From: Phalacrocorax aristotelis
Taxonomy: Eukaryota > Chordata > Aves > Suliformes > Phalacrocoracidae
Assembly (NCBI RefSeq): GCF_949628215.1
Contig: NC_134279.1
Location: forward strand, 84,439,517-84,503,516
Length of the DNA: 64,000 nucleotides
Direction: 5' to 3'
The first letter of the stretch is position 1; each line of letters opens with the position of its first letter. Positions 1,163 through 63,392 of this stretch are shown piece after piece. The notes below the pieces were generated by a model. The model searched no databases. It was not told the origin of the DNA and saw only the letters and a program-made list of their open reading frames with translations. Made by a program: the position numbers and the translations under genes.

Positions 1163-1343
1163 TCACTGCAGCACGCAGACTTCCCTCTCCTCGTCCTCCC
1201 TGCTAGCTGCCTCTCCCAGCGGCTCTGGCACTGCTGGCACGTCCTCCGCGGCCACCACCTTCTCCCGCAGCTCCATCAGCAGGTCGCGGCTCTCGCTGGG
1301 TGGGAGGTTGCTCAGGTAGTACTGGGGTGCCAGCTCCACCAGC
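1163..1343 (-). CDS. DQX1: DQX1 coding exon 11 and stop
   Basis: Residues 684-743 and a TGA stop at 1163-1165. [20 protein letters not shown] and the terminal CVLQ match the DQX1 C-terminus. Confidence 0.92.
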
Positions 1344-61200: not shown

Positions 61201-63392
61201 ACCGTCACTGACTAACCTCTAACACCTTGCTCTGTTTGGCAAATCTAGCTGGGAGGCCAAGGAAAACTGCCCAGGGGATGCCCTGGGCCACTGCCCGTGG
61301 AGCGGGTCCTGCACAGGGCAGTGCAGGATGGGCGTGTGTGGGCAACATCCCTGGGGCACAGACACGTCAGTCACTGAGGCACCGGCTGGTGAAGGTGTGC
61401 CTTAGATAACTTGAAAGATGGGGCTGAAAGCAGGCATGAGAAATAGGGAGGCTGTCCCTGGGGAATGGCAGCTGTCCCCAGGCCGTCCTCCATGCCTGGC
61501 CTGAGACCGCAGTCAGGATGTGACATCCCAGGTCTCCAATCCCAGTGACCGATGGGCACCTCAGCTGCGCCAGAGCCCAGCAGGGGCCACAGCTCCCCTC
61601 ATCCCCCTGGCCTGCACCCCCCTGCACCGCTTCCCTGGGCACGGGGAGGGCACCGTAGGCACATGGAGAACAAGCCAGGGTGCGTAAGATCAAGGCGCAG
61701 TGTCATATGTGCATGGACGGCAGCTCTAAGCTTCTCAGAGGGAAATGTGTCTCTGAGGCGGCAGCACCCAAATCTCTGGCAGCCCCCCATCCTCCATCCA
61801 CAGCCCCCAGAGCGACATCATCCCCCCCAGCCCCCACCTCTGTCCCCGCCTGCTCACCCATCCCGTTGGGCCTCCTTCTTCTCCAGGTCCTGGATGACGT
61901 CCAGCAGCACCCGGATGGTTTGTTGGCTGGTCTCCAGCACCCCTTCCAGGGACTGCAGCTGGGACTGCAGGTCCCCCTGCTCCCCAGACCCCTGGGGGCC
62001 CTCTCCCTGAGATGTCCGCGTGTCCTCGTCCCCCGCTGGTGGTCCCACTGGACCCTTGGCCGCCACCACCAGCTGCAGAAGGTCCTGGATGTGGCGCAGT
62101 GTCTCCGACTGCTCGGCAGTGAGGCAGGGTTGCCCATGCCAGGGGACCTCCAGTGCCCGCCCGGCCGGCTGCATCCCCAGACCGGGGCCCTGTGGGGTGG
62201 GGGGCAGCGGCTCCCCAGACCCCTCCGGTCCTGCCAGGCCGTGCCCAGGCTCAGCAGCGCGTAGCTGGCTGCAGGTGCCGCGGGGGTCCGGATGGCTGAG
62301 CGCAGCTGGTGCCTTCTCCGGTGTGGTGGTGGCAGAGCCGCGCCAGCCCGGCGCTGGTGGGATGGGGGCTGGTGGGGTGCAGCAGGGCCCCCCCCAAGGT
62401 GTGCCGCAGAGCTGGTGCTGGGGTGGTGGTGGGTCCTGCGGGGGGTTGCCCTGAGCTGGCTGGTGGAGGCCGTGGGTGTCCGTGGCAGGGACGGTCTGCT
62501 GGCGGTGCAGCAAGGGCTGGGGCGGTGGGTGTCCGTGGGGCAGGCTCCGCTCTGAGTCGCTCCGTCCCAGCCCCCGCAGTTCGGTGGCTGGCCGGGGCTG
62601 ACCACAGGGCACGGAGGCCGGGCGTGGGGGGGCCCCACGGCTCCCCCCAGGGTTTCTGCGGAGCCGGGCGCAGGCAGGGGGTGGCAGGCAGGGCTCTGGG
62701 GTGCAGCTCCGCACCGGCGAGGTGCAGTGGGCAGCAGGGCACCCAGCTGTGCCCGGATAAGGGGGACAGGGATCCCTGGGCGGTGGCGGTGGCACACGGC
62801 ACACCGCGGCGTGCTGGGGGAGGGCTGTGGCATGGTCATGCACAGGAACGCTGCTGGGTGCCCGTGGGGGCACAGCCCAGCTGGCGCCGGTGGGCACGGC
62901 CCGCCTTGGGCACCAGGCACTCCCCACGGTGGCAGGCAGCACCACGTCCACGGCCACGTCACAGACGCTCTTGCTGTGGGGCTGGCAGGCTGGAAAGGGC
63001 TTCTGGAGGCTGGGGGAGGTCTGGATGGCGGTGCTCATGCACACCTTCCTGGGCATGGGCAGCGTCAGCGAGCCCGGCTGGGCCTGGGGCCAGCTCCGCC
63101 GTGAGGCACAGAGAGCCGCCCGCTCAGGGGTGTCCCTGGGGGGCGGTGAGGCACGTGGGGTGTTGGGGCCGGGGGTGGCCGTGGGCTCCGGGGTGGGGCT
63201 GGCTGCCTGCCCCGCGCTGCCCTCCACCAGGTCCTTGAAGCGGACCTGCTGCGTGCGGTTGCGCCGGCGCTTGAGGCGGCTCTCGATGTCGGGCGAGTCG
63301 CGGTTGAGCAGCACCGAGCGCACCGTCATGGCTTTCTCCTGGCCGCCCTCGCCGGCGGGGGCCGGGCCGGGAAGGGGCTCTCGGCTGACCAT
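52002..63392 (-). CDS. INSYN2 (FAM196) family protein, INSYN2B-like (complete, 3 coding exons)
   Basis: Coding exons in gene order 63392-61858, 56689-56615, 52203-52002: 1812 nt, 603 residues, GT-AG and in phase. Conserved islands: VRSVLLNR (24-31), QVRFKD (49-54), STAIQTSPSLQK (120-131), a coiled coil of about 475-512 with QQTIRVLLDVIQDLEKKEAQ, SYRTGQDIANCGTCRDCACI, and a C-terminus KKSRRKCFWFL. Between them lies a long Pro/Ala-rich, poorly conserved segment. As recalled, INSYN2A is a gephyrin-associated inhibitory postsynaptic protein and INSYN2B its paralogue. The AIQTSP, LLDVIQ and RRKCFWFL forms favour INSYN2B. The opposite strand to DOCK and position in its intron repeat the INSYN2A/DOCK1 and INSYN2B/DOCK2 nesting. 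The alternative start Met22 (63329) aligns better with the family start, so the first 21 residues are uncertain. Confidence 0.9.
52204..56614. other. INSYN2B-like intron 2 (also DOCK intron 27)
   Basis: GC-rich. No gene or repeat recognised. Confidence 0.65.
56615..56689 (-). CDS. INSYN2B-like coding exon 2
   Basis: 75 nt, Cys-rich: RHSYRTGQDIANCGTCRDCA then CIIY. Nearly invariant in the INSYN2 family; acceptor tctgtcacag, donor gtaaga. Confidence 0.93.
58267..58310. repeat. (TA)n-(TG)n-G8 microsatellite
   Basis: TA repeats, an interrupted TACATATATA stretch, TG repeats, then eight G. Confidence 0.95.
58931..59566. repeat. minisatellite of about 17-18 units, 36-37 bp
   Basis: Unit GTGTGCCGGGGGCTGCCCGG followed by CGAGGGGCAGAGCAGG. 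37-bp forms have GGTCTGCC in place of GGCTGCC. Unit has no stop codon in any frame, giving spurious frames of 219-384 codons on both strands. Confidence 0.97.
60735..60890 (+). mobile_element. CR1 LINE fragment near the 3' end
   Basis: TTTTTTCACCCTGAGGGTGG, TCAAACACTGGGACAGG, TGAGAGGTGGGGGATCTCCA and GGGCAAGGTCCCAAGCAGCC match the CR1 3' UTR block around the cACTGGcACAGGtTGCCCAGAGAGGT core. No tail is present. Confidence 0.7.
61858..63392 (-). CDS. INSYN2B-like coding exon 1
   Basis: Residues 1-511 plus 2 nt. Holds VRFKD and IQTSP motifs, the Pro-rich middle and the coiled coil. Donor GATGG/gtgagc. Upstream, an acceptor tctgtccccacag at 63771-63783 suggests the 5' UTR part of this exon starts at 63770. 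Confidence 0.9.

Follow-up and report, generated by a model that had tools for sequence, protein, structure and literature searches.

DOCK-A proteins control cell migration, the engulfment of dying cells and the movement of leukocytes, and three of them are counted in mammals. The genome duplications of early vertebrates (2R) are older than 450 million years. The closest described systems are DOCK2/INSYN2B at human 5q35, DOCK1/INSYN2A beside DHX32 at 10q26, DOCK5 at 8p21 and the Lbx2/Tlx2 paralogon (PMC2446394). An inhibitory postsynaptic role is reported for INSYN2A in excerpts of PMC11840842. In the human gene order in excerpts of PMC2446394, neither DOCK nor INSYN2 lies beside DQX1, in agreement with a preliminary description of the locus studied here, and no DOCK is listed there at the Lbx2/Tlx2 locus in any species. 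No fourth DOCK-A gene or INSYN2 nesting within it is described among the literature matches listed, and the excerpts of PMC2446394, PMC6135963, PMC11255403, PMC11840842 and PMC3411107 mention no such gene. What is new here is a fourth member of the known DOCK-A family, with a third INSYN2.

In this study, we analysed a window of 64,000 nucleotides from the bird Phalacrocorax aristotelis (on the contig denoted C4), together with the rest of its genome. The preliminary description had placed a DOCK-A gene, with an antisense INSYN2-family gene in its downstream intron, directly next to DQX1. All three were located as claimed, and two further INSYN2 coding exons were found in the window. It is very probable that the window keeps, beside DQX1, a working, 2R-derived fourth DOCK-A gene that is the sister of DOCK2 and has a third INSYN2 antisense in its intron 27. 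The features are as follows.

8125-7844, 5161-4968, 4661-4286, 4000-3761, 3458-3359, 3183-3025, minus strand: DQX1 coding exons 1-6 (tblastn with provisional human sequences of DQX1 and DHX32, splice model)
2830-2639, 2513-2384, 2065-1852, 1767-1577, 1343-1163, minus strand: DQX1 coding exons 7-11 (tblastn, splice model; stop at 1163)
8400..9599, no strand: CpG-island-like stretch separating the 5' ends of DQX1 and DOCK (CpG observed/expected and GC)
10883-10925, 12895-12978, 13181-13221, 13450-13505, 13611-13707, 13785-13933, 14399-14534, 14668-14822, 15560-15641, plus strand: DOCK-A exons 1-9 (tblastn, splice search)
16788-16923, 18443-18518, 19028-19107, 19646-19771, 19889-20013, 20682-20780, 21284-21356, 22274-22377, 24960-25149, plus strand: DOCK-A exons 10-18 (tblastn, splice search)
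29337-29434, 29950-30039, 30648-30748, 30906-31040, 37045-37156, 42850-42920, 43545-43651, 45524-45651, 48504-48599, plus strand: DOCK-A exons 19-27 (tblastn, splice search)
32820..33194, plus strand: 3' end of what we take, from a provisional consensus, to be a CR1-type retrotransposon, with a (ATTCTATG) tail, in DOCK intron 22 (boundaries by eye)
48600..64000, continuing to window coordinate 77945, plus strand: first part of DOCK intron 27, enclosing the antisense INSYN2 (end set by exon 28)
61858..63392, minus strand: INSYN2 coding exon 1 (ATG at 63392; N-terminal QVRFKD, IQTSPSL motif, C-terminal coiled-coil-like block)
56615..56689, minus strand: INSYN2 coding exon 2 (SYRTGQDIANCGTCRDCACIIY; FAM196 profile match C4:84496124-84496198, splice model)
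52002..52203, minus strand: INSYN2 coding exon 3, ending ...RRKCFWFL and stop (FAM196 profile match C4:84491521-84491721, splice model)

The DQX1 gene is complete, its 11 coding exons running from 8125 down to 1163 on the minus strand and encoding 752 residues from ATG to stop, with the DEAQ motif in the form VLDEAQERT and DHX15 as the best solved-structure match (4e-168). An identity as DHX32 was ruled out by a tree in which the protein groups with human DQX1 at 100/100 and by its higher identity to DQX1 than to DHX32 (59.9 versus 49.3%), the human sequences being provisional in both comparisons. In the four 300-base steps of 8400..9599, CpG observed/expected is 0.85-1.11 and GC 0.76-0.84, compared with a CpG observed/expected of 0.11-0.61 in ten other steps, and this stretch is a candidate promoter region common to DQX1 and DOCK, which lie 2.8 kb apart. 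Scanning the window for Rfam families and tRNAs returned nothing.

The DOCK-A gene, identified by tblastn and an in-frame splice search with donors restricted to GT or GC and acceptors to AG, begins on the plus strand at 10883, and its exon 27 ends at 48599. With flanks from the bird's own genome, the model comprises 47 exons and 1619 residues without a stop, as modelled to exon 47 and leaving out the C-terminal tail beyond it. The window encodes the first 27 of these exons, or 930 of the 1619 residues (57%); exon 28 lies outside it at C4:84517462 (window coordinate 77946). The model carries the domain series of a DOCK-A protein, an N-terminal SH3 (SH3_2), DOCK_N (1.7e-95), DHR-1/C2 (DOCK-C2, 3.9e-62), TPR/ARM (TPR_DOCK, 3e-228) and DHR-2 lobes A, B and C, all above the Pfam gathering scores. 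Chance open reading frames were ruled out by the stop-free 47-exon model and by Pfam matches far beyond chance.

The nested INSYN2 gene is likewise complete, with three minus-strand coding exons encoding 603 residues without an internal stop, all within DOCK intron 27, which is the pattern of the INSYN2 (FAM196) family. FAM196 (PF15265) matches the exon-1 protein at 4.7e-21 (76.3 bits versus a cut-off of 27), and C4 holds four matches above the curated cut-off. In the bird's own genome, the best candidates scored gave ten INSYN2 profile matches, distributed over three loci that lie inside DOCK1, DOCK2 and the window DOCK; none of the ten falls on C24, the DOCK5 contig. The three-part match pattern is common to C12, C8 and C4, each copy lying antisense in the homologous intron 27. 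The copy on C8 (30044995-30053863) is bracketed by the DOCK2 equivalents of exons 27 and 28 (30037415-30084351), that on C12 (20484674-20516119) by those of DOCK1 (20475858-20559636), and that in the window (52002-63392) by the window DOCK exons themselves (48599-77946, window coordinates). The bracketing exon matches on C12 are weak (E 0.003 and 0.02, with a stop in each matched stretch), but they are collinear with the remainder of DOCK1. As INSYN2 is nested antisense at the same intron of all three genes, DOCK1, DOCK2 and the window DOCK, the nesting would be older than 2R.

Could the two genes be a decaying pair preserved by chance? The middle part of the INSYN2 protein is highly divergent and rich in proline and GC, donor sites are weak in DOCK introns 24 and 41, and intron 13 is of the GC-AG type, the remaining 45 modelled introns having GT donors. 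Against this, there are no stops in 47 and three exons, respectively. The window DOCK retains 547 of 625 columns invariant across DOCK1/2/5 as well as the DHR-2 loop, and a 26-residue DHR-2 stretch is identical to the provisional human DOCK2 sequence. Differences from the bird's own paralogues amount to 0.67-0.71 at third codon positions and 0.16-0.35 at positions 1 and 2, a pattern of constraint (tblastn pieces with an internal stop, from intron read-through, were left out of this comparison and of the first DOCK tree). Decay is thus very unlikely, and the genes are intact.

The bird's genome has four DOCK-A loci, orthologues of DOCK1, DOCK2 and DOCK5 lying on three contigs other than C4. Compared with provisional human reference proteins, its DOCK2 (C8) is 90.4% identical over 436 residues, DOCK1 (C12) 96.5% over 200 and DOCK5 (C24) 88.5% over 235. 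The window DOCK is 58.7-63.4% identical to human DOCK1/2/5, nearest DOCK2 (for which 64.3% was also obtained) and most distant from DOCK5 (58.7-60.2%), and 38.3% identical to DOCK4, whose letters were unchecked; by these sequence identities, it groups with DOCK1/2/5 and DOCK4 is excluded. Since the other three are present elsewhere, the window gene is a fourth DOCK-A gene and not a moved DOCK2 or DOCK5.

Phylogenetic analysis gave the tree ((DOCK1,DOCK5),(DOCK2,window)) at 97/99 (SH-aLRT/ultrafast bootstrap). The DOCK2-window pairing recurred with full-length proteins under two models (96/98 and 96/99) and at 100/100 without the outgroup, and two-against-two columns favoured it by 40 versus 16 and 14. 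As a sister relationship it depends on rooting with a single distant, provisional outgroup sequence, and roots on the window or DOCK2 branch are rejected by the AU test only at p values of 0.036 and 0.030, with neither rejected by the SH test (0.70 each). The clade of human and bird DOCK2 (100/100) leaves the window DOCK outside, so the split of the window DOCK from DOCK2 predates the human-bird split. Transfer of the bird's own DOCK2, with INSYN2B, or of its DOCK5 to a place beside DQX1 is suggested by the nearness to DOCK2 in the trees and by two neighbours of DOCK5. These are SLC4A5 and MTHFD2, which we take to be human 2p13 genes. In excerpts of PMC6135963, both belong to the GnRH1/DOCK5 locus in chicken and gar. 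Nevertheless, within this genome a translocation is refuted by the separate DOCK2 and DOCK5 and the separate INSYN2 inside DOCK2 on C8, by the tree, in which placement within the DOCK2 or DOCK5 clade costs 91 or 164 log-likelihood units, and by AU tests rejecting any place inside the DOCK1, DOCK2 or DOCK5 clades (p <= 2e-6), leaving it a negligible probability. The window DOCK lies neither within the human-bird DOCK2 clade as the only DOCK2 nor within the DOCK5 clade, the placements that the preliminary description had named as decisive against a separate paralogue.

Two comparisons bear on the DOCK2 pairing. The SH3 region of the window DOCK is 61% identical to DOCK1, 57% to DOCK5 and 42% to DOCK2, which counts against it. 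In short blocks from profile and protein matches, the window INSYN2 is 56 and 73% identical to the copy in DOCK1 and 37, 49 and 60% to that in DOCK2; being about equally distant from both, it offers no confirmation of the pairing. The same DOCK-A tree is independently predicted by what has been published on the history of the linked Lbx/Tlx loci (excerpts of PMC2446394).

A search of the flanks, from which weaker segments that overlapped and anything within the window and DOCK were omitted, identified LBX2-, PCGF1-, TLX2-, AUP1-, HTRA2-, LOXL3- and DOK1-like genes around DQX1 in the order seen at human 2p13; here, DOCK/INSYN2 separates DQX1 from AUP1. This block also holds IL12B/p40-like and PDCD4-like genes, which may be additional losses. 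On C12, a DHX32-like gene (minus) lies 0.43 Mb from DOCK1 (plus), followed by INSYN2A (minus), matching DQX1-DOCK-INSYN2 in order and orientation. With its TLX2/LBX2/LOXL3/DOK1-type neighbours and the DQX1-DHX32 pair, the block is a member of the same paralogon of four parts and carries linked ohnologues. The proposal of another ohnologue block is therefore supported by the fourth DOCK-A locus, the third INSYN2, the tree and the DHX32/DQX1 order, and from these we infer its 2R date. Segmental duplication of DOCK2/INSYN2B at some time between 2R and the separation of the human and bird lineages, with the copy inserted beside DQX1, would also pair the window DOCK with DOCK2, and the root placement is only moderately resolved with one vertebrate genome searched. 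This is unlikely, as the DOCK2-window split is at least as deep as that of DOCK1 and DOCK5 (branch lengths about 0.31+0.31 versus 0.16+0.32), as a study including sharks (excerpts of PMC6135963) reports DOCK5 from two of them and counts DOCK1 among the common members of the GnRH3 cluster, and as the window occupies a published Lbx/Tlx paralogon member, beside a DHX32 paralogue, in the arrangement seen at DOCK1.

The pair apparently dates, then, from the early vertebrate genome duplications. Probably, a single ancestral DOCK-A gene, already carrying an antisense INSYN2 in intron 27 before 2R, became four; the DOCK5 copy would have lost its INSYN2, four DOCK-A and three INSYN2 genes would still work in a living bird, and the human lineage would have lost the whole pair, its Rac exchange factor together with its inhibitory-synapse factor, as the DQX1-AUP1 interval collapsed. 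From its intact domains, the window DOCK is likely an ELMO-dependent Rac exchange factor, whose SH3/N-terminal region would hold ELMO, DHR-1 bind membrane phosphoinositide and DHR-2 open Rac through its nucleotide-sensor loop. By analogy with INSYN2A, the window INSYN2 should be an inhibitory-synapse factor. With a fourth intact DOCK-A gene, found in a bird, the 2R quartet is complete, and the history of the Lbx/Tlx paralogon can be tested cleanly by tree and synteny together; the DOCK/INSYN2 nesting would be as old as 2R. Loss of the pair in the human lineage may have left its work to DOCK2 and DOCK5, and bird loci named DOCK2-like may be the window gene rather than DOCK2.

Compared with the known systems, the Lbx2/Tlx2 paralogon shares LBX2/TLX2-type neighbours with the window, but no DOCK is listed there in the excerpts of PMC2446394. 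DOCK5 (C24) is likewise a DOCK-A gene, unlike the window gene in having none of the ten INSYN2 matches on its contig. DOCK1/INSYN2A beside DHX32 (C12) has the same succession of a helicase paralogue (minus), DOCK (plus) and nested INSYN2 (minus), whereas its helicase gap is 0.43 Mb rather than 2.8 kb and DOCK1 falls on the opposite side of the tree. DOCK2/INSYN2B (C8) is of the same family, carries INSYN2 antisense in its own equivalent of intron 27 and is nearest in the trees; however, DOCK2 is linked to TLX3, whereas the window DOCK, 64.3% identical to human DOCK2 and nearer DOCK1 than DOCK2 in its SH3 region, is a separate locus linked to DQX1 and TLX2.

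A scan of amino acids and codons on both strands of the window (C4:84439517-84503516, C4 being the contig that carries it) revealed a plus-strand gene of the DOCK-A (DOCK1/2/5) subfamily and two minus-strand genes, DQX1 and an INSYN2 (FAM196) gene. With 27 DOCK exons in the window, three INSYN2 exons and a complete DQX1, this is the arrangement that the preliminary description had reported, a DOCK-A gene with an antisense INSYN2 beside DQX1. About 0.26 Mb separate the window from the end of C4 (84.76 Mb), and the DQX1/DOCK block, being near that end, may be subtelomeric.

Features of the DQX1/DOCK locus (window coordinates unless a contig is named)
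8125 down to 1163, minus strand: DQX1, 11 coding exons, 752 aa, ATG to stop
8400-9599: CpG-rich stretch in the interval from DQX1 to DOCK, the two genes being arranged head to head
10883 to 48599, plus strand: DOCK exons 1-27, joined in frame by splice search
C4:84450399-84528653, plus strand: DOCK gene model from the window and its own-genome flanks, 47 exons, 1619 aa, no stop
25276-26673: minisatellite of 19-base units, DOCK intron 18
DOCK intron 22: 3' end of an element assigned to the CR1 type by comparison with the CR1 consensus, tail ATTCTATG; like the genome size, it is in keeping with a bird host
58919-59566: minisatellite of 37-base units, DOCK intron 27
63392-61858, 56689-56615 and 52203-52002, minus strand: INSYN2 coding exons, 603 aa in total

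A DEAQ motif is present in the DQX1 protein, and its motif I reads GKST. The protein is 59.9% identical to human DQX1 and 49.3% to DHX32 (provisional human reference sequences), and was paired with human DQX1 (100/100, SH-aLRT/ultrafast bootstrap) in a tree whose outgroup, DHX15, was taken from a PDB alignment. The CpG-rich stretch may be shared by DQX1 and DOCK. The INSYN2 exon-1 protein matched Pfam FAM196 with 76.3 bits (cut-off 27), and its N-terminal and C-terminal blocks, but not the long middle, are conserved relative to a provisional INSYN2A sequence.

With human DOCK1 and DOCK2 as queries, tblastn located exons of DOCK in consecutive order up to 48.6 kb. The splice search was restricted by design to GT or GC donors and AG acceptors, and a GC donor occurs in one of the 46 introns (intron 13, window 19772-19888). 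SH3_2, DOCK_N, DOCK-C2, TPR_DOCK and three DHR-2 lobes were above the Pfam cut-off, and a 26-residue DHR-2 stretch is identical to that of the human DOCK2 reference. The 47-exon model ends before the last exons of the C-terminal tail. At window coordinate ~91.2-91.5 kb (in L034, a stretch of C4 flanking the window) there is an open frame that includes the run SPPPPPPK; this run resembles the proline-rich tails of DOCK1 and DOCK5, unlike that of DOCK2, and the frame may represent the C-terminal exon of the gene.

Searching the 1.279-Gb assembly (352 contigs) with the first 929 aa of DOCK produced 53 matches, 24 in the window, 13 on C8, nine on C12, six on C24 and one on C6, and the second half identified the same four loci, with additional DOCK-like matches of lower strength on C1 and C6. 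When exon pieces containing a stop were left out, the exons on C8, C12 and C24 were 90.4% identical to human DOCK2 (436 aa), 96.5% to DOCK1 (200 aa) and 88.5% to DOCK5 (235 aa), respectively. The window DOCK was only 63.4, 61.9 and 58.7% identical to human DOCK2, DOCK1 and DOCK5 (~1180 aa), or 64.3, 64.2 and 60.2% in a longer comparison (~1614 aa). Since all three orthologues reside on other contigs and the window identities are lower, the window DOCK is, on these comparisons, a fourth DOCK-A gene of the genome, distinct from DOCK1, DOCK2 and DOCK5 as had been proposed. Among the matches listed in the open-access literature no description of a fourth DOCK-A was found; an automatic gene call for it may exist in other databases.

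The best DOCK tree was ((DOCK1,DOCK5),(DOCK2,window)), in which each human-own orthologue pair had 100/100 support and the window-DOCK2 pair 97/99. With longer proteins the support for the latter pair was 96/98 under one model and 96/99 under another, and omitting the outgroup gave a split of 100/100. The reference sequences are provisional, with DOCK5 agreeing with PDB 7dpa at 957/957 positions shown, DOCK2 and DOCK1 confirmed in parts and the DOCK4 outgroup provisional throughout. In two-against-two columns the window agreed with DOCK2 in 40, DOCK1 in 16 and DOCK5 in 14 (48, 19 and 18 in the longer alignment). AU p values were 0.979 for the window with DOCK2, 0.030 for the window beside (DOCK1,DOCK5), 0.036 for the window outside all and at most 5e-5 for six other placements; the SH test retained the first three. 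Because those three differ in the root only, the window DOCK is firmly separated both from the DOCK1/DOCK5 pair and from the orthologues of DOCK2, and its sister relationship to DOCK2 is moderately firm. Counter to that pairing, its SH3 region is 61% identical to DOCK1, 57% to DOCK5 and 42% to DOCK2. A moved DOCK2 or DOCK5 is ruled out by the tree and by the separate DOCK2 on C8 and DOCK5 on C24.

The FAM196 profile identified at least 10 matches in the genome's contigs (three on C12, three on C8 and four on C4, each of them minus-strand), a lower bound as only the best candidates were scored. Among those candidates none was on the DOCK5 contig C24, consistent with the earlier suggestion that DOCK5 has no nested INSYN2.

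Nested INSYN2 genes
C8:30044995-30053863, minus strand: INSYN2 in DOCK2, between the exon-27 equivalent 30037308-30037415 and the exon-28 equivalent from 30084351 on
C12:20484674-20516119, minus strand: INSYN2 in DOCK1, between DOCK1 exons 20475751-20475858 and 20559636 on
Window: INSYN2 bracketed by DOCK exon ends 48599 and 77946

The bracketing matches on C12 are weak (E 0.003 and 0.02, with human DOCK2 as query), yet collinear. That antisense genes occupy the homologous intron of three DOCK loci is best explained if the nesting preceded the multiplication of the genes.

Apart from its own locus, the window DQX1 has its best match at C12:19956405-19981628 (minus strand), 0.43 Mb from DOCK1. 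This match was taken as a putative DHX32 by linkage and similarity, in line with the expected proximity of DHX32 to DOCK1. The order on C12 is DHX32-like (-), DOCK1 (+) and nested INSYN2A (-), and that on C4 is DQX1 (-), DOCK (+) and nested INSYN2 (-). The C4 flanks, with gene names assigned by eye, presumably read RTKN, INO80B, WBP1, MOGS, PDCD4-like, CCDC142, TTC31, LBX2, PCGF1, TLX2, an intermediate-filament end, a p40-like gene, DQX1, the DOCK/INSYN2 pair, AUP1, HTRA2, LOXL3, an OGA-like gene and DOK1. In the strung flank segments, two homeodomains, trypsin-like, lysyl oxidase, NAGidase, PH/PTB and MA3 domains were above the Pfam cut-off; RING and RAWUL in PCGF1-like segments were below it.

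Further genes in the flanks (L042, L048 and L040 are stretches of C4)
L048:6980-8725 (window -63020 to -61275), minus strand: PDCD4-like gene encoding MA3 domains, flanked by segments that resemble MOGS and CCDC142
L042:4626-4757 (window -5374 to -5243), plus strand: intermediate-filament rod domain end, between TLX2 and the p40-like gene
L042:6390-8101 (window -3610 to -1899), minus strand: IL12B (IL-12 p40)-like gene, in the TLX2-DQX1 interval
L040:3569-4793 (window 147569-148793), minus strand: OGA-like (NAGidase) segments, in the LOXL3-DOK1 interval

The p40-like gene combines an Ig domain over the cut-off with FN3-like pieces and the motif WSPWS, matches PDB IL-12 beta chains at ~1e-11 and has Pfam IL12p40_C below cut-off. 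It may be another retained ohnologue, since IL12B itself lies in the vicinity of the DOCK2 paralogon, on human 5q33. Similarly, the PDCD4-like gene may be a further ohnologue that human 2p13 has lost, as human PDCD4 is on 10q. The OGA-like segments fit the 'further Mgea gene' in chicken mentioned in the available part of PMC2446394. The human order published there is LBX2, PCGF1, TLX2, DQX1, AUP1, HTRA, LOXL3, DOK1, with mouse, dog, cattle and opossum arranged alike and platypus unconfirmed. As that order, in the part available, passes directly from DQX1 to AUP1 with no DOCK, the DOCK/INSYN2 pair is missing between two retained neighbours, which supports the proposed absence of a DOCK beside human DQX1.

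The window INSYN2 is predicted to have an inhibitory-synapse role, after that described for INSYN2A in the accessible part of PMC11840842. The window DOCK keeps 547 of 625 family-invariant columns (547/620 for DOCK2, 547/615 for DOCK5 and 547/587 for DOCK1), and its differences from own DOCK2 at codon positions 1, 2 and 3 are 0.27, 0.16 and 0.67 (369 codons). From established knowledge of DOCK-A proteins, the fourth protein would bind ELMO, be recruited to the membrane and act as a Rac exchange factor.

DOCK2 is at the Tlx3 locus, and DOCK1 and DOCK5 are on the chromosomes of the other two loci (Lbx1, Lbx4). In the available part of PMC2446394, chicken Dock2 is placed together with Tlx3 on chromosome 13, and other genes lead that study to group the Lbx2/Tlx2 locus with Lbx3/Tlx3, and the Lbx1 locus with Lbx4, as sister loci. 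The DOCK tree agrees with that prediction.
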